DNA from: a virus
DNA: 64,000 nucleotides
Strand: one strand, 5' to 3'
Virus record (IMG/VR): IMGVR_UViG_3300033149_003715
Coordinates: 80,174 to 144,173 of that record
Notes under the pieces: generated by a model
The model's database searches: none
What the model was told of the DNA's origin: nothing
The model's input: the letters and a program-made list of their open reading frames with translations, nothing else
Shown here: piece after piece, positions 8,582 through 62,691 of the stretch
How the letters are laid out: each line of letters begins with the position of its first letter
Position numbering within the stretch: the first letter of the stretch is position 1
Made by a program: the position numbers and the translations under genes

Positions 8582-8709
8582 TTCAATTATCCTTTTCTAA
8601 ATTAAGATTTATGTTACTCTTTATATATATACACAAAAAATATTATTTCTTAACAAACTCATTAAAGTTCAATAACACTAATTAACCAAAAAATATACTT
8701 TTTATCCCA

Positions 8710-26548: not shown

Positions 26549-26638
26549 TTGTACTTTACACAATGTGCCATATGAAGATAAAGAAGCCAAATTTTATGTA
26601 TTCGTCCCATCAATATTTAGGTTAACAATAAAATGAAT

Positions 26639-26897
26639 GGCCAATAAGTAAAATTATCAAATATTGTTAAGTTTCTCAAACATACCTTTTTCTTACTGGT
26701 TAGTCTAACCTTAATTTTTCATCTTCCCTACAAAAGTTTATAAAGGGGGGAAAGTTATATGATGGTAGATGATTTCACGATTGCCGACAATCTTTTGGTA
26801 GTTTTGCGTTTTAGTTCTCTTCAATAAAGAATACGTCCCTAATATGACGACACGACCAAAATTGGAAACGATTCAATTTCGCTTGTGTCTGTATAAC
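26639..26897 (-). ncRNA. candidate noncoding RNA/leader, copy A
   Basis: Intergenic, transcribed leftward from the promoter at 26904-26932. About 200 bases (26639-26840) align with 34584-34782, the only other copy. Shared blocks include AAAGGTAT, GGTTAGACTAACC (short hairpin) and a TTCCC...GGGAA stem with a variable inner hairpin. No reading frame is conserved. It leads directly into the 26548 gene without a clear terminator, so it could be a leader or a separate RNA. Confidence 0.6.
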
Positions 26898-26903
26898 TAT
26901 TGT

Positions 26904-26932
26904 AGTATACCTTACGGAGGTAGAAAAGTCAA
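26904..26932 (-). promoter_or_regulatory. strong sigma-70-type promoter
   Basis: Minus strand: TTGACT, a 17-base spacer, TATACT, followed by an A-rich start region. This is the best match to the bacterial consensus that I found in the window. It drives noncoding element A and then probably the 26548-13910 run of genes. Confidence 0.8.
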
Positions 26933-27047
26933 GTTTTTATGTGATAATTTTATTCCCACAGTGGGAAATTTATCGCCAACAACCATAATGGTTGATTTTG
27001 TTTTACAATGATACAATATGAGGCACAATATACCGTAATTATATTAA

Positions 27048-27950
27048 TCATTTTATATTGTACATTCTTCCCTTACTTGTCTTTAGAACATACCCCTTGT
27101 TAACCAAAAATGGCTCAATAATATTTTCTATTGTGTAACGGTCAATTTTTGTCATTTCCATTAATGGTTTTAATCCAACAGGACGCTTTATTTTCAGTAG
27201 ACATGAAAGATATAATTTATCATTAGTAGTTAATCCGTTCTTATCTACCCCTTTTAGTTTAAGAGCAAATTGAACAGTTTTTTCATCAACTAATCGTACA
27301 GATTGGCTAACTATATAATCTCTAATCCAAATTAAATATGTATTCAAAATACGTGGCGTACCACGTGCAATTTTTGCTATATGTTTAATGCAATTGTGTG
27401 GCATATTAATATTAAGCTTTGATAAATGCAATTGTGCCAATGTAGTCAACTCATCCACCGAATACAATTGTAAATGTTCTTGTATGGGAAATCTGTCAAT
27501 CAATGGTAAATTTAAACTACCAATCTGAGTAGAACATGCTATGCAAGTAAATTTTGGCAAATCTATAACAATTGCTTCTTTGTCTATTTTATTAGCAACT
27601 AAATTAAGTTTAAAATCTTCCAATACTGTTAATAGTAAATCTTGACACCGCCTATTAAGGCAATGTATTTCGTCTGCAATCAAAATGTCTTGATATTGTA
27701 ATCTAACTAAATATGGTAATAATTGTTTAGGATTGGTAACATTTGCACAGTTAACAACTATAGGAGTTTTGTTAAACTCACGACTAATTGCTAACGCTAT
27801 AGTTGTTTTACCTAAACCTGGTCCACGGGACCCTAATAATATATGAGGCAGTATATCTTGCCTTTTTTGAGAAGATTTAATGTGGATTTTCAATCTAGTA
27901 AGTACATTTGATTGCCCTATGATATCAGACAATGATGTTGGTCTTAACAT
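27048..27950 (-). CDS. ruvB: RuvB-like Holliday junction branch-migration ATPase
   Basis: 300 residues. Starts LRPTSLSDIIGQ as RuvB does; Walker A GPGLGKTT (43-50), Walker B ILIADEIH (D93, E94), sensor region CIACSTQIGSLNLPLIDRF with the arginine finger, RGTPRILNTYL (sensor 2) and the winged-helix tail VGLKPLMEM...IENIIEPFLVNKGYV. RuvB hexamers drive Holliday-junction branch migration; RuvA normally guides them. No RuvA or RuvC is nearby, but see the next gene. Slightly short (E. coli RuvB 336). Confidence 0.93.
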   Translation of the reverse strand: MLRPTSLSDIIGQSNVLTRLKIHIKSSQKRQDILPHILLGSRGPGLGKTTIALAISREFNKTPIVVNCANVTNPKQLLPYLVRLQYQDILIADEIHCLNRRCQDLLLTVLEDFKLNLVANKIDKEAIVIDLPKFTCIACSTQIGSLNLPLIDRFPIQEHLQLYSVDELTTLAQLHLSKLNINMPHNCIKHIAKIARGTPRILNTYLIWIRDYIVSQSVRLVDEKTVQFALKLKGVDKNGLTTNDKLYLSCLLKIKRPVGLKPLMEMTKIDRYTIENIIEPFLVNKGYVLKTSKGRMYNIK

Positions 27951-27957
27951 AAACTTA

Positions 27958-28326
27958 TTACATTTGGCTTAAAATTTTTTTGACTAAATCTTGTACTTTC
28001 CACTCTTTTTTATTATTTGCTAAAATATGCATAACTTTTTGTTTAACTAACTTAACTGAAAAACCCTGAGCACTAAGAATATCTACCACTTGTTGTATTA
28101 ATTTCTTATATTGTGACCGATTATCACTAATACAATGTTTGTTTCCGTTACCAGTTGTAAAGTTAACTTCTATATTTTGCAATGGTGTAGTAGATAAAAT
28201 CTGTCCACAGTAACATTCTACGTTATTACACATCTGCGATTCTTTCATAGAAAACCAATGTGTGGACTTGCAGTATGGACAATTATATCCAAAGTGTAAG
28301 TCAATATCGGCAGGTTTTATTTTCAT
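27958..28326 (-). CDS. zinc protein with possible RuvA domain III
   Basis: 122 residues. The N-terminal half has CPYCKS and ECYCGQ, likely one zinc. The last 47 residues (LIQQVVDILSAQGFSVKLVK onward, LVKKILSQM at the end) look like a three-helix bundle with a G-F-S turn, similar to RuvA domain III, the part that binds RuvB. It lies seven bases upstream of ruvB. Inference: a replacement RuvA that recruits RuvB. Weak sequence support. Confidence 0.55.
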   Translation of the reverse strand: MKIKPADIDLHFGYNCPYCKSTHWFSMKESQMCNNVECYCGQILSTTPLQNIEVNFTTGNGNKHCISDNRSQYKKLIQQVVDILSAQGFSVKLVKQKVMHILANNKKEWKVQDLVKKILSQM

Positions 28327-28592
28327 ATATTATTTTCGTCATGATCAAAATCGAGAAATGTATCTTCGCCAATGACACAGTATACTCTATCTTTTGGTAT
28401 AGAATATTGTGGAAGATCACCTTTAATATACTTGTTAAGATCTGGACCACGAAAACCACGTTCATCCACAAAGAAAAAATGATCTATTATTTCACCATTT
28501 GCCATATTTAATGCTTTTTGTGCCGCTTCTACTGGAGCAGAAGCTATTACAATTTTATGTAATTGACCTGATTTAACATAATACTTAGACAT
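28323..28592 (-). CDS. phage hypothetical protein
   Basis: 89 residues: MSKYYVKSGQLHKIVIASAP then EAAQKALNMANGE, IIDHFFFVDERGFRG. I recall homologues in many phages, mostly with (Y/F)xV.SG....v..A..p..AA..A; function unknown. ATGA overlap with the zinc protein gene. A decayed partial copy lies at 29203-29271, and a distant relative at 29264-29512. Confidence 0.75.
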   Translation of the reverse strand: MSKYYVKSGQLHKIVIASAPVEAAQKALNMANGEIIDHFFFVDERGFRGPDLNKYIKGDLPQYSIPKDRVYCVIGEDTFLDFDHDENNI

Positions 28593-28677
28593 AATTATTT
28601 TTTTTGCTTCCAGTTATAAAACTAATTTTCATATTTTTCAATAGCATAGTAAATAAAGATCTAACAGATCATATCGT

Positions 28678-29190
28678 TTAACCATTGTTTTGCGTGTTAT
28701 AAAGTCGGTGTCGTCGTTGAAAAAGAAAACGCACTATTAGTATATGGTTTACAACCTGAAAGCCTGAGTAACTTATTAAGAAACCAAGAATTCCAAAAGA
28801 TATGTCAAGAAAGTATTTTGACCATAAGTCTGGTTTTGCAAACGCCCACAATACTAATATATAACCAATCAATGTTAAAAGAGTGAAAGCCGTCCATACA
28901 AGCCAATCAACAATTTTCTCAGCGACTAGTTTTATTTTTGAATCGTTTGACCAAGAACAAGCCGCCCAAGCTTGAAATAAAAGCATTATTAGCATAAAAC
29001 CAAGCATGATATTTGTTGCAACAAACAAATCTCCAAAATGTGAGCGGATATGGAAAATAGCTTCTGCGTCGTAATGACACCATATTCCAACACTAATTCC
29101 AATTACTAGAGCCGTCCAAAATTCACCATCTTTCCAAAGGAAAGGATTTTTTAGTATCTTTGGAATAAATTCGCCTATTTCGTAATACAT
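28678..29190 (-). CDS. multi-pass membrane protein
   Basis: 170 residues with four hydrophobic segments: FWTALVIGISVGIWC, LFVATNIMLGFMLIMLLFQA, VWTAFTLLTLIGYILVLW and ISFGILGFLISYSGFQVV. The loops are short, the C-terminus basic (RFLFQRRHRLY). No family recognised; the topology could suit a transporter-like or superinfection-exclusion protein. Confidence 0.7.
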   Translation of the reverse strand: MYYEIGEFIPKILKNPFLWKDGEFWTALVIGISVGIWCHYDAEAIFHIRSHFGDLFVATNIMLGFMLIMLLFQAWAACSWSNDSKIKLVAEKIVDWLVWTAFTLLTLIGYILVLWAFAKPDLWSKYFLDISFGILGFLISYSGFQVVNHILIVRFLFQRRHRLYNTQNNG

Positions 29191-29202
29191 TGTAACAAAT
29201 TT

Positions 29203-29271
29203 CTACCTATTTTTGGTTTTTTGACTGTTAGAAATGGAAACTATTACAGTTTTATGTAATTGGCTAGGCAT
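29203..29271 (-). pseudogene. decayed 5' fragment of the 28323-28592 gene
   Basis: 22 codons, MPSQLHKTVIVSISNSQKTK, echoing SGQLHKIVIASAPVEAAQKA of the gene at 28323-28592, then a stop. DNA similarity runs over about 30 bases (ACAGTTTTATGTAATTGG on the plus strand versus ACAATTTTATGTAATTGA). A remnant of a tandem duplication. Confidence 0.6.
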
Positions 29272-29512
29272 AATTAATTTCTTCGCAAATTGGTGATTGT
29301 CTTGCTAGATTTAAAATTTGTATAATGTGCAATAAATGAATGTATTGATCGTCATTATGTTTGTCAAATCCATATCTGGATATTCTAAATATAAGCGGTA
29401 TGTTATCTTGATAACTATTTAAATATTGTTTCAACGCTTTAATACATGCATGATATATATTGCCAGCCATATATAGATATTTTTTTTGTCCATACGTAAT
29501 ATAATATTTCAT
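29264..29512 (-). CDS. hypothetical protein, distant relative of 28323-28592
   Basis: 82 residues beginning MKYYITYGQKKYLYMAGNIY and continuing HACIKALKQYL, which aligns with MSKYYVKSGQLHKIVIASAP...AAQKAL of the 28323 gene. C-terminal halves differ. Function unknown. Confidence 0.6.
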   Translation of the reverse strand: MKYYITYGQKKYLYMAGNIYHACIKALKQYLNSYQDNIPLIFRISRYGFDKHNDDQYIHLLHIIQILNLARQSPICEEINYA

Positions 29513-29514
29513 TA

Positions 29515-29697
29515 TTACCCTTTCGTATTTTGATTATCCTTTAATTTTTCGTTATGTTGATTCTGAATAGATCGTCGAATTTGTATCAATTCATTTTTTA
29601 TTTCTTCCTTATGCATTTTCAATGATACATTTAATCCAATATTAGTGCCAAATACTGCACCTAAGATTAACCAAGGTAATATACTATTATCTTTCAT
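29515..29697 (-). CDS. small membrane-anchored protein
   Basis: 60 residues. One N-terminal hydrophobic segment (ILPWLILGAVFGTNIGLNV) followed by a charged helical tail (KEEIKNELIQIRRSIQNQHN). Likely an inner-membrane single-span protein with a cytoplasmic coil. No family. Confidence 0.55.
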   Translation of the reverse strand: MKDNSILPWLILGAVFGTNIGLNVSLKMHKEEIKNELIQIRRSIQNQHNEKLKDNQNTKG

Positions 29698-29706
29698 GCG
29701 TATTTC

Positions 29707-30165
29707 CTATTTATTATAAGGTTTAGCTGAATATACTTCTTTAATTAATTTTACTGCATCTACAAACAATGTTCCATTCGGTGGTCTTATTAAATGCACT
29801 AAGTGTTTGAACCTTTTTTTATATTTTCTTAATTTCCACGCTTTGATAACAGTTTGCCAATTATTCCTTAAACTATCAGCAACAATACCATTTTTTGATG
29901 GATTGTGTACTTCACACATCCAAATAGTCCCTCTATCAAAAATTGAAAAAGTAGAAAATTGATATTTAAGATTCATATTTGTATGTAAAAATTCCATAGC
30001 ATTTTCAATAGTATCGAATACAAACAATTTAGAACCTTTTATGGTTGGATATGTCCATTCGTTGATTTCATATTTGAGTATACGACCGTATCGGTGTTTT
30101 AATCCTCTATGGAAAATAGATAGCAAACCATTATCACGAATGACAAGCTTATATGCTATAAACAT
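29707..30165 (-). CDS. YKVV-family protein, divergent member
   Basis: 152 residues. Holds the family core: YKLVIRDNG at the start, YEINEWTYPTIKGSKLFVFD, CEVHNPSKNG, a basic helix, and PPNGTLFVDAVKLIKEV at the end. It is the longest member and leftmost of the 18 apparently intact copies. The family (about 130 residues, start M-K-x-Y-Y-K-V-V, end P-x-G-T-x-x-x-x-x-V-K-L) is not one I can name. Confidence 0.75.
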   Translation of the reverse strand: MFIAYKLVIRDNGLLSIFHRGLKHRYGRILKYEINEWTYPTIKGSKLFVFDTIENAMEFLHTNMNLKYQFSTFSIFDRGTIWMCEVHNPSKNGIVADSLRNNWQTVIKAWKLRKYKKRFKHLVHLIRPPNGTLFVDAVKLIKEVYSAKPYNK

Positions 30166-30204
30166 AATTATATAATTATTTTATATTTTAGAATACTGCT
30201 TACA

Positions 30205-30585
30205 TTAAGAACAACGATTGTGAATCAATTTATAAAAATTCTCCGGATTGTGGCAAAACTTAGTGTAAATTTCTTTACGAATTTTTTCCCTGTTGGTATT
30301 TAATTTCCATAGCAAATACAACACCAAATCACTTTCGCTAATATGTTCTAGTTGACATAGTGGACAATATTTTTCTGGAATTTCGTATCTCCAATCATTA
30401 GAGTTTTTCAACTGTTCCATAACATTCTTATTAAGATAACTTTCGTTAAAAACATGTCCTCTTACACACTCTACCATCCATGCATCTTCAAGGGTAAAAT
30501 CCCATCCTGATACAGTTTGTCCTGAAATATCACATGTAAAACTTGAACTACTTGAATTACTGACAAAACCAGTTCTAATTTTCAT
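30205..30585 (-). CDS. SNSSSSSF-type phage protein with zinc motif
   Basis: 126 residues. Starts MKIRTGFVSNSSSSSFTCD, the sequence (M..R.GFVSNSSSSSF) seen at the N-terminus of many large-phage proteins of unknown role. A later CPLCQLEH with an upstream CVRGH could hold zinc. Ribosome site GGAGG precedes it. Confidence 0.78.
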   Translation of the reverse strand: MKIRTGFVSNSSSSSFTCDISGQTVSGWDFTLEDAWMVECVRGHVFNESYLNKNVMEQLKNSNDWRYEIPEKYCPLCQLEHISESDLVLYLLWKLNTNREKIRKEIYTKFCHNPENFYKLIHNRCS

Positions 30586-30596
30586 TGTTTTTCCTC

Positions 30597-30878
30597 CTAT
30601 TTGTTGTTCTTACAATTATTAATTTTTTCTGCAATCTCACGAGCCTTAATTAGTGCTTGCCCTAATAAACTCCTTGATGTTTGTTGACATTGACTGTATC
30701 CTTCTCCACAGTAAATAATTTTTATTCCTCGTTTTTGAGCAACCTTTCTATTCAAAACTTTAAGTTTCTCCACATTATCAGGTACTACTTGAACTGCTAC
30801 ATACACATCTGGTCCACCAAATTGATGAGCACTTGATCCTCTTGAACGTTGTTTGCGAATTTCTACGTATGCTTTCAT
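30597..30878 (-). CDS. hypothetical protein
   Basis: 93 residues from ATG 30878, which overlaps the upstream stop as ATGA. Contains SRGSSAHQFGGPDVYVAVQV then VPDNVEKLKVLNRKVAQKRG. A small beta/alpha fold is likely. I recall similar phage proteins with GG.DVYVAVQ but no function. Confidence 0.68.
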   Translation of the reverse strand: MKAYVEIRKQRSRGSSAHQFGGPDVYVAVQVVPDNVEKLKVLNRKVAQKRGIKIIYCGEGYSQCQQTSRSLLGQALIKAREIAEKINNCKNNK

Positions 30879-31462
30879 AATTTTTTCCATTTATTACCAG
30901 AATACGGTTTTGCTAAAGTATTTTTATCAAGGGATGGACAATACGTAAATTCTTTGTTGTTAATTTCTTCTTCTAACGGATGATATGTTTGCGTAAAATC
31001 TTCATCATATGATGCTTTAATCAAAAAACACCCAGCTAATTCAGCACATTTTACTAATAAGTCTTCGGTTAATGCTACACCTCCATGAAATGTATATCTA
31101 TTTTGAAAAACTTTAACATCATTTGTAAGATCAATACAATCACCACATGAAAAACCTAAAGCACTTTTAAATCCTATTTTATTTATATGCCCAGCACGAC
31201 TAGACCACGGTCCTTTTAAACATTTTTGTACAATTTGATTATCTTCTTGAAGTTTAATATTAAATGTATGTCCGCCAAATCCTCGTCCAGGGCCTTTATA
31301 ATAGTAAAAACTAACAAAACCATCTTTTTCTGCATAATACGTATTATTTTTTTCTGTGAATATCATATCCGATAATGCAGGAAGTTTGTCCACTAAAACC
31401 TCAAAAATTGGATCACTATCAAAATAATGCATCCAATTAACACGCGATTTCAAAATTTTCAC
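30875..31462 (-). CDS. hypothetical protein
   Basis: 195 residues starting at a GTG (31462) that overlaps the stop of the YKVV remnant upstream as TAGTG. Gly-rich centre (GPGRGFGGHTFNIKL) and a Cys-containing SALGFSCGDCIDLTN. Not recognised; the sequence looks globular and well-conserved in style. Confidence 0.68.
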   Translation of the reverse strand: MKILKSRVNWMHYFDSDPIFEVLVDKLPALSDMIFTEKNNTYYAEKDGFVSFYYYKGPGRGFGGHTFNIKLQEDNQIVQKCLKGPWSSRAGHINKIGFKSALGFSCGDCIDLTNDVKVFQNRYTFHGGVALTEDLLVKCAELAGCFLIKASYDEDFTQTYHPLEEEINNKEFTYCPSLDKNTLAKPYSGNKWKKL

Positions 31463-31727
31463 TATTCTATCCTTTTAATTAATTTTACCGCTTTAGCTGC
31501 AACAGTACCTTTAGGAATACATACAATACCACCGTAATCTATTACTTTTTTCTTTTGTTTCTTTTTGTATAAAATTTCTATTAGAGACTCTAAATCAAAG
31601 GTAAATGGTATTTTTCTAAATCTACCTTTACCCTATAGGTAATAGCAGCTTCTCGTATACTATGCTCGTAATATGTAGAACATACTGACTTCATTTCCTG
31701 CGTAACAACTTTATAATAGATTTTCAT
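31462..31727 (-). pseudogene. YKVV-family remnant, subgroup A4
   Basis: Begins MKIYYKVVTQEMKSVCSTYY and continues to ITYRVK, then loses the central core, shifts frame near 31620, and ends with PFTFDLESL, KKKQKKK, IPKGTVAAKAVKLIKRIE. Both ends match 58562-58960 (GRFLKIPFTG; IPPGTIAVKSVKL). An internal deletion of about 40 codons plus a frameshift. Confidence 0.78.
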
Positions 31728-31741
31728 AATTATTCACTTAA

Positions 31742-32140
31742 TTAGCAGTTCAAGTATACTCGTTTTAATAGTTTAACTGCGGATACAAACACTGTTCCTT
31801 TTGGTACAGCCTTTTTTTCAAAGAACTTTTTATGTTGTTTTTGTTTTTTTCTTATCAAGTTCCATTTTCTTAAAAATACTGATGCTGAATGTATACTACC
31901 AATATAAGGTACAAACACACTTGAACAAGAAGGATTCTCTATCATACAATTATAAACATGTGATCCAAAATAACAAAATTTACGTGCATCTTTTAAATTA
32001 TTAAAGACCATTAATTTTGTACCCTCAACCTTAGGATATACCCACTCTCCAATCTCGTATTTAACTACAAATTCTTTCGGCAAATGTTTATAAAGATACG
32101 ATTTTAGATCAAATGAAACAACTTTATAATAGGTTTTCAT
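31742..32140 (-). CDS. YKVV-family protein, subgroup A1
   Basis: 132 residues: MKTYYKVVSFDLKSYLYKHL, PKEFVVKYEIGEWVYPKVEG, TKLMVFNNLKDARKFCYF, IENPSCSSVFVPYIG, a basic RKKQKQHKKFF, and PKGTVFVSAVKLLKRV. Closest to 33158-33577 in this region. The conserved Trp-Val-Tyr-Pro turn and the GT.FVSAVKLL end suggest a compact alpha/beta domain. Confidence 0.8.
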   Translation of the reverse strand: MKTYYKVVSFDLKSYLYKHLPKEFVVKYEIGEWVYPKVEGTKLMVFNNLKDARKFCYFGSHVYNCMIENPSCSSVFVPYIGSIHSASVFLRKWNLIRKKQKQHKKFFEKKAVPKGTVFVSAVKLLKRVYLNC

Positions 32141-32142
32141 AG

Positions 32143-32484
32143 TTATTCACCTAAAATTTGGGGGGAATTTTGAAGACCGTGAGAACGATCTAACTGTCCA
32201 AGTACGTTAGCAGTAGCAGTTACAATACCATTTCCAAATTGTTGGTTGTACGCATTTTTAATATCTTCATTAGGTTCTAATTGAAATAAGATATGATTTT
32301 TGGATATTACGACTTTTTTTTCGTTGGAGAATGGCATCCACGGTCTCATTGCTATACCTATTTTACCAGTTGCATCTTGACCAACAGACATAGCTACCGG
32401 ATTTATTAAACATACTTGATCTTTACATGATTCGATTTGTGCTATAATTTCTTCACCATAAATTAATTTAATGTATTTAACCAT
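32143..32484 (-). CDS. Sm/Hfq-fold-like phage protein
   Basis: 113 residues: MVKYIKLIYGEEIIAQIES, LINPVAMSVG, IAMRPWMPFSN, VVISKNHILFQLEPNEDIKN. This pattern (IKLI.GE.I.A.., NP..., PW.P.S, ...I......P...I...Y) is one I recall from marine phages with an Sm-like barrel. RNA binding is a guess. The gene is 2 bases upstream of the YKVV member at 31742. Confidence 0.6.
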   Translation of the reverse strand: MVKYIKLIYGEEIIAQIESCKDQVCLINPVAMSVGQDATGKIGIAMRPWMPFSNEKKVVISKNHILFQLEPNEDIKNAYNQQFGNGIVTATANVLGQLDRSHGLQNSPQILGE

Positions 32485-32495
32485 AGTTCAACTCC

Positions 32496-32891
32496 TTAAC
32501 TACTTTGTAACAACCATTTTTTAAATGGTTCATAGGGGTTTTTGGTACTATACCATAACTGTGTACAATTAAAATCTAGTAACAATTTTTGGCAACATTT
32601 ACATGGTTTAGACATGCCCAACATACCATTGGCCATGATCCTAATGTTAACAAATGTAAATTTAGGTAACAATGAGACAGGATATGGAAAATTTTGAATA
32701 GCTTTTAATTCAGAATGAATGTTATTAAATCTATAACCATATCGACCTGCCAGCGGATGTGTCTTAAAAGATAAATTATACCCTACGGAAATCACTCTTT
32801 TCTTAAGCAAAATAAAAGTAAAATGTTTTTGACGTGCATCGGGCAAATCTATCATTTTATAGGATAGTTTGATCAGTTTGTCAAATTTCAT
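32496..32891 (-). CDS. cytidine deaminase-like fold protein
   Basis: 131 residues with the two zinc motifs of the deaminase fold: NIHSELKAIQ (HxE) and SKPCKCCQKLL (PCxxC), in the normal order about 45 residues apart. It may deaminate a nucleotide or modified base. With ThyX it may serve the deoxynucleotide supply. Confidence 0.82.
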   Translation of the reverse strand: MKFDKLIKLSYKMIDLPDARQKHFTFILLKKRVISVGYNLSFKTHPLAGRYGYRFNNIHSELKAIQNFPYPVSLLPKFTFVNIRIMANGMLGMSKPCKCCQKLLLDFNCTQLWYSTKNPYEPFKKWLLQSS

Positions 32892-32908
32892 AACACTAAG
32901 TTTTATGA

Positions 32909-33145
32909 TTATGAAGGATTAAGATCGTAATATGGACAGTTTCGATTATTTGCCAACAAGTGTTTACGAAAATCTTGTGTAATTTGATGTTCCCATATAT
33001 TTTTAAAACTGCTTACATCAAAAATATTAATGCCAAATTTCCATTCCTTTATTCCTTCACAAAAAGAACATGCGTAACAATTTCCTAAACAGTTAATATA
33101 CATTGAAAACAATGTAGATTCACATGGTTCACATAATTGTTGTTT
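32909..33145 (-). pseudogene. SPASM-domain fragment of a radical SAM protein
   Basis: Reading from 33145 gives LCEPCESTLFSMYINCLGN, CYACSFCEGIKEWKFGINIF and a final NRNCPYYDLNPS. The Cys spacing and the C.f....eWkfGINIFD..SF..IW sequence are those of SPASM auxiliary-cluster domains. The radical SAM core is missing: a stop lies just upstream at the end of the 33158 gene. A translated stretch from ATG 33112 (67 residues) remains open. Confidence 0.65.
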
Positions 33146-33157
33146 TTGTATAAAATC

Positions 33158-33577
33158 TTAATTGTTCAATTCTGTTAATTGTAGTGATTTGTCTACTGGT
33201 TCTAGTAATTTAATTCCGTCCACAAATACTGTTCCTTTTGGTACAGCTTTTCTTTTAAAGAACTTTTTATGCTGTTTTTGTTTTTTTTGTAAGGAAAACC
33301 ACTTCTCCAAAAACTGTGATGGAAAATGTAGATTACCAACATGAGGCACAAATACACCTGAATAAGAAGGATTCTTGACTAAACAAGTATAAATATAGTT
33401 AATATCAAAACAGAAGTTATATGCATTTCTAAGACTATTAAAAACCATTAGCTTCGTACCTTTAATTTTAGGGTATACCCATTTTCCAACTTTGTATTGT
33501 ACAACAAACTCTTTCGGTAAAAGATAATAGATTCGTGATTTTAATCTATATGAAACAACTTTGTAATAAATTTTCAT
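33158..33577 (-). CDS. YKVV-family protein, subgroup A1
   Basis: 139 residues from ATG 33577. MKIYYKVVSYRLKSRIYYLL, VGKWVYPKIKGTKLMVFNSL, VKNPSYSGVFVPHVGNLH, QKKQKQHKKFFKRKAVPKGT and FVDGIKLLEPV. A C-terminal tail KSLQLTELNN extends past the usual end. Sister of 31742-32140. Confidence 0.8.
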   Translation of the reverse strand: MKIYYKVVSYRLKSRIYYLLPKEFVVQYKVGKWVYPKIKGTKLMVFNSLRNAYNFCFDINYIYTCLVKNPSYSGVFVPHVGNLHFPSQFLEKWFSLQKKQKQHKKFFKRKAVPKGTVFVDGIKLLEPVDKSLQLTELNN

Positions 33578-33662
33578 TCTCAAAATTTCCCAAGCGGAAT
33601 GTTTACTATTAACATATCATTTAAAAATACCTTGATACATTACCATTGAAATAAAACAATTA

Positions 33663-33878
33663 TTAAGTAGGGCTCGAATTTGCTTTAATTGTTTCTAAAT
33701 GATATGTATTATCTTCTGTCCAAATACTAACAGACATACCCCAAAGTTTTGATAGGAGTGATGCATACTGTACAGCTTCGTGATAACAAGAAAACTTCCT
33801 ATTTTCGTCAAACATAGGCATACTTTTATCACGATACTTTTTATAGTTTTTTCCGTAAAAATTGTATACTTCGGCCAC
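33663..33878 (-). CDS. small hypothetical protein
   Basis: 71 residues: MAEVYNFYGKNYKKYRDKSM then a helix YHEAVQYASLLSKLWGMSVS and IWTEDNTYHLETI. A short alpha/beta domain; not recognised. Ribosome site GGAG precedes the start. Confidence 0.6.
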   Translation of the reverse strand: MAEVYNFYGKNYKKYRDKSMPMFDENRKFSCYHEAVQYASLLSKLWGMSVSIWTEDNTYHLETIKANSSPT

Positions 33879-33904
33879 GATAATCTCCTTTATATCACTT
33901 ATAT

Positions 33905-34090
33905 TTAATTAAGTGTACGCGAGATTTCTTTTAGTAGTTGTTCTGACCTATCAATTTTTCCATTCGCTTGGTTGATTTTAATAGCTTGACCCTGTTTAAC
34001 AGCTTGCTTTCTGGTTGGAAAACATTTACCAGATTGACCGAATTTCCATCCTAATTTTCCATTAGGAAGTTTGCATCGCATAATAGGCAT
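33905..34090 (-). CDS. small phage protein with LPNGKLGWKFG motif
   Basis: 61 residues: MPIMRCKLPNGKLGWKFGQS, GKCFPTRKQAVKQGQAI. I recall small phage proteins with MP...C.LPNGK.G.k.G.SGKCY, also of unknown role. It is the first gene after the noncoding block 34091-34800. Confidence 0.7.
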   Translation of the reverse strand: MPIMRCKLPNGKLGWKFGQSGKCFPTRKQAVKQGQAIKINQANGKIDRSEQLLKEISRTLN

Positions 34091-34474
34091 TTCTCATTCA
34101 TTTTACAAAATTCGTAGAAATTGAATCTTGAAGGTAGCCTTTCATCTACCTAAAAATAAATACATTACTATGTTAATTAACTTATAATACACCCTTTAAG
34201 ATTTTCACGAAGCTTTCAAGGCTTACCTTATAAGTTTGTCGTCACTAAACTATCCTGTTTACCCACTACTACCTTGGTTCTGATTGGCACCAAAATAGCT
34301 CCCAGAATCTTACCATCAATATTCTATACAGCAAAAATGAATAACTTAAGACTAATAGGTATCAAACTACCAATAGAAGCAATGGGCCAAAAACTATCTT
34401 TTTTACGTAAGTCTAAAACTGACAAGGACTTATATTTTTATCAGCTATTATTATGTAAAACTTTGTAAAAAATT
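34091..34474 (-). other. gene-free stretch, shared 15-base motif
   Basis: 384 bases with no credible gene on either strand. It contains AGGTATCAAACTACC at 34357-34371, found identically at 57358-57372 in another gene-free gap, and a short GGTA/TACC hairpin around it. It lies after the ncRNA terminator and before the 33905 gene. Confidence 0.4.
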
Positions 34475-34510
34475 CAAAAAAATCCCAGAATTATTGGCCA
34501 TATTTCTGAG
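34475..34510 (-). terminator. Rho-independent terminator of noncoding element B
   Basis: Minus strand: CTCAGAA, a 13-base loop, TTCTGGG, then A and seven Ts (34476-34482). Seven base pairs, two of them G-T or similar, then the T-run. It ends a leftward transcript that has no protein gene. Confidence 0.72.
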
Positions 34511-34800
34511 TTCAGCTATATAATAAAATAGATACTATTTGTGAAGAATTGAGTTAATTATTTAAAGGCCGTATATTACGAAGGGCCAGTAAGTAAAAAT
34601 ACTAAATTTTGGATGTCTTAAGTATACCTTTTTCTATTGGTTAGTCTAACTTAAGTTTTTTAGTTTTCCCCGAAAAGTTCGTAAAGGGAAGAAAGTTTAA
34701 TGACTAAAAAAGATCTCACAATAACCAATAACCTTTAGTAGTTTTACGTGTTTGGTTGTACCTCAGTAAAGTACGGAACCCCAGAAATAAAGATTCAAGA
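34511..34800 (-). ncRNA. candidate noncoding RNA, copy B
   Basis: Bases 34584-34782 align with copy A (26639-26840) over about 200 positions, including AAAACTAC, GTTAGACTAACC and a TTCCC...GGGAA stem; the inner hairpin changes sequence but can still pair. The transcript would end at the terminator 34475-34510. A weak promoter (TTGTTA, 16 bases, TATTAT) lies near 34863-34890. No frame is conserved between the copies, so an RNA or a DNA site is more likely than a protein. Confidence 0.6.
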
Positions 34801-34870
34801 ATTGTTATTAATAGTTAAATAGGTTTCTATATGATTCTATTGTTACTATAGATTCTAATTGTATAATACA

Positions 34871-41130: not shown

Positions 41131-42546
41131 TTACTGTAGACTTCTTTGTCTGATTGTATCGAATTTTTGAGTGACTAATAATCGTCCATTACGATATACC
41201 TCCACTAATTTATTTATGTGCTGGGGTAGATAGTCATAATTTACTGTCTTAAAACATTTTTCGTCGTCCGCATAAATAAGCCTCAATCGTCCCTTTTTTG
41301 ATTGTTTATTTTTGTCTTTAGGTCGTTTAGATATATCATGCCATGTATTACATCTTTTTTGTGCTGAACATTTGAAGGCGAAAGCTTGGGTGTCTCTGTT
41401 AATTTTTTGTAGTAATCCGCCACCCATACCAAATACTAGGCTTTCTACTGAGAATTTGTTTTCTACAACGATTTTACATATTTCTGTGATAGTATTTACA
41501 CTCAAACCATCTCCCCATAACACACCTACAACTGGATTTATTACAGTATACCCTTTGGAATTAACATGATATCCAAACGTATTTGCCAATTGTTTTAATA
41601 TCCAGACTATTTGCTTACCTGGATGTTTGTGTTGTTGTGTTATACTATCTGGTCTAATAACCACTTTAGCTATACCAGATTTGTTTGCTTTTCTGTTAAT
41701 TATTTGCTGTTTGAATTTGGGTATAATGTTTTCCACAAAGTTATAAATATCATACGAATCCGCGACTATACTTAGAATTCCATTCGGGTATTTTTGGAGC
41801 AATTCGTTAACTAACGTTACTTCTCCTTGATGATCGTATGATGTCATTATTGAGTGTTCGGTTGCGGGGACACTAAAACCTAATGTTTTTGGATCAGCTT
41901 GGTAATATTCTATACCTTCTAATAGGGCTGGAACTGTATCGGTTCCTTTGAAATTAATTAAGTGTGCTAATCCACCTAAACTTGCAGATTCATTAGAGCT
42001 TACACCACGATAACCAAAATCGTGAAGCATAAAATCTAAACACTGTGTTTGTTCTGACGATATATTAAGATATTCAGCCAGTGTTCTTTTAGTGTAATAA
42101 CTAATAGTAGCTACAGTTGATGGATACCATACATGTGTTAGCAAAGATTCCACAAAATTAGTTAACCAATAACATTTTGGATCTGTATTTTCCACTGTCA
42201 TCATTACATTATTAATATCAACTGGCGTACCTTCTGGCACTGCCTTGATTGATAGTGGTAAATACCCATTGTGCTTTTTAACTATATGCAACCAGCCATC
42301 TTCGTTGAATAAATTTTGTCCAAAATGATTTTGGATAATTGTTTTGGCCACTGTAATTTTTTCTCGCGTGACTCTCCTTCCTACCATATTTTTAAGTAAA
42401 ATAGATTGTAAACCAAAAAAAACAGTTTTTGGATATTTTGCCCATTTTCTACATTCTAAGTAGGAATAAATTGTCCGTGTGTTTTTTGGGTACATTTTGT
42501 AATGAGCAAATTTGTAACTATCCGATAATAAACAGATATTATCCAT
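41131..42546 (-). CDS. nadV: nicotinamide phosphoribosyltransferase
   Basis: 471 residues, the normal length. It makes NMN from nicotinamide and PRPP, the first step of NAD salvage. Conserved parts: DSYKFAHYKMYPKNTRTIYS, YLECR, the catalytic-His segment FSVPATEHSIMTSYDHQGEV, VIRPDS, and GVLWGDGLSVNTI and FGMGGGLLQKINRDTQAFAF. No second-step enzyme (NMN adenylyltransferase) is in the window. Phages use it to restore NAD drained by host defences. Confidence 0.95.
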   Translation of the reverse strand: MDNICLLSDSYKFAHYKMYPKNTRTIYSYLECRKWAKYPKTVFFGLQSILLKNMVGRRVTREKITVAKTIIQNHFGQNLFNEDGWLHIVKKHNGYLPLSIKAVPEGTPVDINNVMMTVENTDPKCYWLTNFVESLLTHVWYPSTVATISYYTKRTLAEYLNISSEQTQCLDFMLHDFGYRGVSSNESASLGGLAHLINFKGTDTVPALLEGIEYYQADPKTLGFSVPATEHSIMTSYDHQGEVTLVNELLQKYPNGILSIVADSYDIYNFVENIIPKFKQQIINRKANKSGIAKVVIRPDSITQQHKHPGKQIVWILKQLANTFGYHVNSKGYTVINPVVGVLWGDGLSVNTITEICKIVVENKFSVESLVFGMGGGLLQKINRDTQAFAFKCSAQKRCNTWHDISKRPKDKNKQSKKGRLRLIYADDEKCFKTVNYDYLPQHINKLVEVYRNGRLLVTQKFDTIRQRSLQ

Positions 42547-51836: not shown

Positions 51837-51857
51837 TTGAATTCTCCCCAAAAATAG

Positions 51858-57225: not shown

Positions 57226-57477
57226 TTTTTATCCTTTTGTTCTGGAACTAATTACATAAGAGAAAAAACTGTGTTGTGTTGACTAAACTATTCCCGGCAG
57301 GTATATTTTTATTGAAATAACAATTATTAATGCGTTTTTTGACTTTGGAACTAATTTAGGTATCAAACTACCTATTTTCCTTTTGAGAATAATTTTTGCC
57401 CTTAAAAATATTAACGACAAGATTCTAGGGCATATTTACAGGGTGATTGTGACCTATTTTGGTCGTGTGTGAGTTCA

Positions 57478-57536
57478 CCGGATTAGTTTAGCTACTATTT
57501 TCCGGTGATTTTGCCCTAAGAGATGTTTTCAGGGCA
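57478..57536 (-). repeat. paired stem-loops after the 57516 gene
   Basis: CCGG-ATTAGTTTAGCTACTATTTT-CCGG (57478-57505) next to TGCCCT...AGGGCA (57512-57536), which includes the stop of the 57516 gene. The same two hairpins follow the 58100 gene at 58031-58087 (CCGG...CCGG, GCCC...GGGC). Conserved paired hairpins after each member may terminate or process RNA; neither has a T-run on the minus strand. Confidence 0.6.
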
Positions 57537-57953: not shown

Positions 57954-58099
57954 CACTTCTCCTTTTTAATTAAGGTTGTCGGCAGATATATTTTGTTAAA
58001 ATAACAATATTTGTGACCTGAGGGAATTCACCGGATTAGTTTAGTTACTATTTTCCGGTGATTTTGCCCTAGAAGAGTTGGGTGGGCAAGAGTGGCACA

Positions 58100-60351: not shown

Positions 60352-60425
60352 TGAGAACGGTGGGATTTGAACCCACGATCTTCGGATTAAAAGTCCGATG
60401 CTTTACCAGACTAAGCTACGTTCCC
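60352..60425 (-). tRNA. tRNA-Lys (UUU), copy 1
   Basis: Acceptor GGGAACG/CGTTCTC (one G-T), D-arm AGCTTAGTCTGGTAAAGC, anticodon stem TCGGA/TCCGA with loop CTTTTAA (UUU), T-arm GTGGG-TTCAAAT-CCCAC. Discriminator A. Reads AAA, very common here. Identical to copy 2 except near the acceptor 5' end. Confidence 0.95.
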
Positions 60426-61047: not shown

Positions 61048-61121
61048 TGAGAACGGTGGGATTTGAACCCACGATCTTCGGATTAAAAGTCCGATGCTTT
61101 ACCAGACTAAGCTACGTTCTC
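61048..61121 (-). tRNA. tRNA-Lys (UUU), copy 2
   Basis: As copy 1 over nearly the whole molecule, but the acceptor is GAGAACG/CGTTCTC with a perfect helix. Upstream (5') sequence then joins directly to the degraded terminator. The tRNA and the adjacent GSRFFG gene were copied as a unit. CCA is not encoded. Confidence 0.95.
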
Positions 61122-62350: not shown

Positions 62351-62657
62351 AATCTACTCCTTTTTGGTGATTTGGTAAGTTAACAAAAAACTTTTCACCT
62401 GGCTTTGTATTTGGGCTGACTATCTACGCGGCTAGTTTACCTAAATCACCCAGTTTGTGTTTTGTGTTTAATTATCCTGGTTTGTGCAAATTGCCCATTT
62501 TATCCAGTTTCCCAGGATTGCGTAGTTTATCTGTTTTACCCAGTTTTCCAGGGTTATGTAATTTATCCAAGTTATTTATTGTACCTATTTTATTTTAGGT
62601 TATATTATTTCAATATAGGTACAATAGATAATTTGGGTAATTTGTTTTTTGCCCATT
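62351..62657 (-). repeat. gene-free gap with 36-base tandem repeat and inverted repeat
   Basis: Three units of 36 bases: 62532-62567, 62496-62531 and a worn one at 62460-62495. On the minus strand they read as 12-codon repeats (DKLHNPGKLGKT, DKLRNPGKLDKM), but without a clear start. To the right, ATTGTACCTAT (62578-62588) pairs with ATAGGTACAAT (62615-62625), 11 base pairs. A regulatory or replication site is possible. Confidence 0.6.
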
Positions 62658-62691
62658 AAAAAACCCCCCCGAATAACCGGGGGGGTAGGTT
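62658..62691 (-). terminator. strong Rho-independent terminator
   Basis: Minus strand: ACCCCCCCGG, short loop, CGGGGGGG, then TTTTTT. Seven or eight G-C pairs followed by the T-run. It ends transcription of the 62706-63581 gene pair and marks the border with the AT-rich region. Confidence 0.88.

Follow-up and report, generated by a model that had tools for sequence, protein, structure and literature searches.

From our analysis of a 64,000-base window (the whole stretch of DNA examined, bases 80174-144173 of a phage record of 144,173 bases), we found that a non-coding element of about 230 bases is present twice, in diverged form, in a large uncultured phage. Our tentative reading, held at somewhat less than an even chance, is that both copies are intergenic and may encode a structured RNA of about 160 nt on the + strand, against the surrounding genes. 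The duplication itself is real. Copy A (window 26613..26841, + strand; blastn E 1e-20) and copy B (window 34559..34790, + strand), with limits set by nhmmer, are homologous at 72% identity over 197 columns (blastn E 6e-21 to 1e-20), and since no third copy is present in the 144-kb phage record, the element occurs exactly twice. No reading frame common to both copies is conserved, and the substitutions between them are spread evenly over the codon phases (21/63, 18/64, and 14/65). The blastn and nhmmer alignments and the codon-phase counts thus agree with the first-pass annotation of this DNA, which had described about 200 aligned bases at two loci without a conserved frame. The blocks TGGTTAGTCTAAC and ATACCTTTTTC are intact in both copies despite the change of 28% of the bases.

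Both copies are situated in gaps inside leftward gene runs, which bears out the earlier remark that they stand before such runs. At 457 bases (copy A) and 780 bases (copy B), these gaps both rank among the genome's three largest. Copy A adjoins a RuvB-like gene (window 27048-27950, - strand) with all three RuvB domains; this neighbor looks complete, and a split gene or intron at A was rejected. The gene is kept in the near-complete relatives of this phage. Further along the window, a nicotinamide phosphoribosyltransferase gene (41131-42546, - strand) shares 46% identity with its counterpart on an IMG/VR contig of 236 kb.

The consensus fold of the + strand predicts a compact anatomy for the candidate RNA. 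RNAalifold and the pair counts place it within a closing helix, P1, at window 26648..26807 in copy A (arms 26648-26661 and 26794-26807) and 34593..34747 in copy B (arms 34593-34606 and 34734-34747), both on the + strand. P1 has 13 predicted pairs, joining GUAAAA.UAYYAAA with UUURGUA.UUUURC. Within it are predicted a hairpin P2, GGUUA-GUC-UAACC (A 26698..26710, B 34639-34651, + strand), whose outer G-C pair becomes G-U in B through a change of the last base to U, and a long hairpin P3/P4 (A 26712..26757, B 34653-34698, + strand) of 13 pairs, three of which are changed on both sides. Between P1 and P2, the pyrimidine-rich segment ACCUUUUUCU (A 26684..26693, B 34626-34635, + strand) is predicted to be unpaired and is conserved in the A/B alignment. 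The most likely mechanism would be a small RNA of the phage, with P1 closing it and the single-stranded tract ACCUUUUUCU offering a contact surface to an RNA or protein partner; in pairing with translation starts, this tract showed no consistent advantage over reversed controls.

The structural support for a + strand RNA is modest. For the BLAST-defined core, which was selected without regard to structure, RNAalifold gave z -2.04 on the + strand (38/1200 shuffles) and z +0.44 on the leftward (-) strand (774/1200 shuffles); ribosum scoring weakened the + strand signal of the same core to z -1.32 (118/1200, p 0.10). Across all 261 aligned columns, the values were z -2.56 (6/500) on the + strand and z -1.04 (73/500) on the - strand, and the region cut at P1 reached z -3.18 on the + strand, a value biased by the choice of the cut. 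When folded singly against dinucleotide shuffles, copy A in the P1-cut region gave z -2.16 on the + strand and 0.05 on the - strand, and copy B was unremarkable on either strand (z about -1.2). The strands of 301-331 nt that were folded first were no better than their shuffles, and several intergenic stretches elsewhere in the genome fold more stably than those over A and B. As an empirical null, we folded both strands of 30 alignments of the phage's own or kin DNA, comparable in length and identity but probably for the most part coding, which makes the comparison imperfect. Of the 60 control strand-alignments, not one reached -2.04, and in none of the 30 alignments did the two strands differ as much. 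All 31 predicted + strand pairs are standard in both copies, with four changed on both sides and five on one side via G-U, although the agreement is kept partly by construction, as the structure was derived from the same two-sequence alignment and covariation is thin; a shuffle test on the pairs gave 31/500.

The strand matters because G-U pairs of the + strand are A.C mismatches on the other. The stems put forward in the first-pass annotation, which had read the RNA leftward, fare poorly in this light. Its TTCCC/GGGAA stem is out of register between the copies on the leftward strand, and its GTTAGACTAAC hairpin is nearly invariant and so little informative, its single outer change being A.C leftward and G-U rightward. 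Stems that lacked support from covariation had been named as the outcome that would count against a structured RNA, and the leftward strand, with its z of +0.44, shows that outcome. If the element is a transcribed RNA, the + strand, rather than the strand first proposed, is probably its source.

The same observations bear on the possibility that the element is a DNA site present twice, such as a protein-binding, replication, or partition region, in which the palindromes act as DNA. The almost invariant palindromic P2 block and the presence of two copies within 8 kb, near the RuvB-like gene, are consistent with such a site. A DNA site, however, should lack a strand preference, and the one-sided pair changes go via G-U on the + strand. 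In addition, the cumulative GC skew has its minimum at 51849 and makes no turn at A or B, and a replication origin at either copy was rejected on this basis. We consider a DNA site unlikely.

The idea of a leftward leader or small RNA, starting from a promoter at A or ended by a hairpin at B, rested on two signals that are indeed in the sequence. A sigma-70-like site, TTGACT-17-TATACT (26904..26932, - strand), is located just upstream of A, a 7-pair terminator-like hairpin with a T-run (34475..34510, - strand) is seen after B, and leftward genes follow both copies. The description of the promoter as near-perfect was nevertheless overstated: it matches 10/12 consensus bases, 13 sites as good occur in the surrounding 10-kb stretch, and the total of 61 promoter-like sites in that stretch is no greater than expected by chance (58.5 +/- 8.1 in shuffles). 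Likewise, the hairpin has a 13-base loop and does not pass the rules of the terminator scan. Each signal occurs at one copy only, there being no matching promoter at B and no matching terminator at A, and each lies outside the homology, so neither defines the two-copy element. A leftward RNA driven by a sigma-70 promoter would carry its signals as part of the repeated unit, and neither is duplicated. As the consensus folding also shows no structure on the - strand beyond that of column shuffles, we regard a leftward RNA as unlikely, slightly more so than a DNA site. No + strand promoter or terminator shared by A and B was identified. Promoters of the Bacteroidetes type were considered and set aside, there being no clear excess of them and the phage using Shine-Dalgarno sequences; SD-like sequences precede 46% of the genes examined by upstream region, compared with 6% for a control stretch. 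What stands of the earlier claim of an unlisted structured RNA is the absence of a family match and a modest degree of structural support; its leftward strand and its own promoter and terminator do not. Nothing found here points to the polymerase-binding or packaging role that it also suggested.

No family was matched in Rfam 15, a search that the first-pass annotation had suggested: neither strand gave a hit at A or B at the gathering cut-off, and lenient searches up to E 10 returned matches at chance level only. Likewise, blastn against phages and plasmids gave no homologue, nor did pattern scans of IMG/VR (four) and GTDB (one). Among the pattern matches, L016 was rejected as it looked like coding DNA, L216 because it lay inside a reading frame, and the other stretches for lack of a covariance-model match; a weak similarity in L101/L102 was dropped as a coding region of kin phages. 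The proposed covariance modeling with related phages brought out no further homologue, as model R1 recovered only A and B among 49 records, 48 of them other phage records. Homologues with compensatory changes in other genomes, which would be looked for in a structured RNA gene, were thus absent from the collections searched. As far as these collections show, the element appears to be lineage-specific. It resembles the orphan RNAs of the Rfam type, candidates from comparative genomics, in being intergenic and frameless with predicted stems and few compensatory changes; it differs from them in consisting of only two paralogous sequences in one genome, with no Rfam match and no homologue across genomes.

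Single-protein scans found no close relative of this phage except through the nicotinamide phosphoribosyltransferase, at 46%. A terminase alignment, however, brought up many related phage contigs, at 55-60% terminase identity; six of these are near-complete in length and carry the RuvB-like gene at 41-45%. The conserved gene following copy A has orthologues in all six near-complete relatives (44-49%), and coding DNA is found upstream of these orthologues in the six; in the kin, the RuvB-like gene mostly has another gene directly after it.

These results give weight to the main rival, namely that A and B are duplicated non-coding or decayed DNA, the relic of a gene or a small mobile element, with no RNA function and a fold produced by chance in AT-rich sequence. 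The modest p values (p 0.10 with ribosum scoring), the absence of homologues in any kin phage or collection searched, and the presence of further intergenic duplications in this genome are all in its favor, as is the lack of synteny, since the region upstream of the gene after A is coding in the kin. The asymmetry between strands is, however, beyond that of all controls, and the persistence of TGGTTAGTCTAAC and ATACCTTTTTC at 28% change is not favored by uniform neutral decay. We consider duplicated DNA without RNA function possible, at a lower probability than the + strand structured RNA.

All six near-complete relatives also carry a tmRNA above the Rfam RF00023 cut-off (L268-L270 and L272-L274, in records G003, G005, G007, G021, G026, and G030); for three of these, ARAGORN gives tags such as GTTQLALAA. 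The record of this phage, which may be incomplete, yielded no tmRNA. This distribution is what would recommend a decayed or permuted tmRNA as the origin of A and B. A tmRNA is likewise a phage-borne structured RNA of the same phage group with an end-to-end closing helix. Nevertheless, ARAGORN, the Infernal RF00023 model, and a profile of the kin tmRNAs found no tmRNA at A or B. The element is half the length of a tmRNA, no tag or tRNA-like domain was found in it, and the tmRNA copies of the kin are on the strand of the RuvB-like gene. With no match to model or profile, a tmRNA remnant was rejected, and we regard this origin as the least credible of those considered.

Type I toxin mRNAs also have an end-to-end closing helix. 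A type I toxin-antitoxin-like unit would here combine an mRNA on the + strand, enclosed by P1 and carrying a small frame after AAAGGGGGG/AAAGGGAAG, with an antisense RNA made from the - strand. In both copies, a purine-rich tract, partly within P4, precedes an ATG, the promoter-like site at A is on the opposite (-) strand, and transcription of the other strand is possible, as in such toxin systems. The frames, however, differ in length (22 codons in A and 12 in B), their products have no clear hydrophobic character, and no codon-phase bias is seen; the element thus lacks the conserved hydrophobic peptide of a type I toxin. Such a unit is very improbable, scarcely more credible than the tmRNA remnant.

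Copy B shares its gap with another duplicated non-coding element, unrelated to A and B (window 34295..34447, + strand), whose partner lies at genome 73867-74019 (L013:13867-14019); the pair is 74% identical over 159 columns (E 1e-21) and folds weakly better on the + strand (z -1.9 vs -0.3 on the - strand). The partner copy is directly 3' of a ribonucleotide reductase gene (L013:14013-17327, - strand) with a B12-dependent-type insertion domain and an intein bearing a LAGLIDADG-type endonuclease domain. The adjoining reductase looks complete, and a split gene or intron at the second element was rejected. Several further repeats were noticed in this genome. A 59-base stretch occurs with 100% identity at L010:16681-16739 (+ strand) and at window 8621-8679 (- strand). 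Each time it precedes a gene, and the L010 copy comes right after a gene for a putative major head protein; the stretch resembles a promoter region common to the two loci. An intergenic hairpin, TCACCGGA/TCCGGTGA, is duplicated at window 57455-57515 and 58008-58068 (87% over 61 bases), and two tRNA-Lys(TTT) genes (window 60352-60425 and 61048-61121) lie within an intergenic duplication (91% over 119 bases). In addition, the non-coding stretch at window 62360-62690 is strongly structured (z -5.7 on the + strand at 62511-62670); it contains several CCCAGTTT-like units, a long inverted repeat, and a strong terminator-like hairpin (C7/G7).

Returning to the + strand structured RNA, a more specific form of this reading is that A and B represent a two-copy phage RNA, specific to this lineage and running counter to the genes, that has a closing helix and a conserved pyrimidine tract and belongs to no described family; this phage may have several duplicated intergenic RNAs of this sort, including the second pair (window 34295-34447 and genome 73867-74019). 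In this fuller form the proposal is doubtful, and we rate it below the simple reading. A functional RNA at A and B would be specific to its lineage within a broad group of environmental phages, in which the near-complete members have tmRNA. A leftward operon transcript that crosses the locus of A or B would be a perfect antisense of the + strand RNA, and the orientation against the gene run would thus make such an RNA a natural antisense to the operon transcript. In essence, A and B form an orphan RNA candidate, and the useful outcome is that such an RNA, if there is one, probably has the orientation opposite to the earlier proposal.
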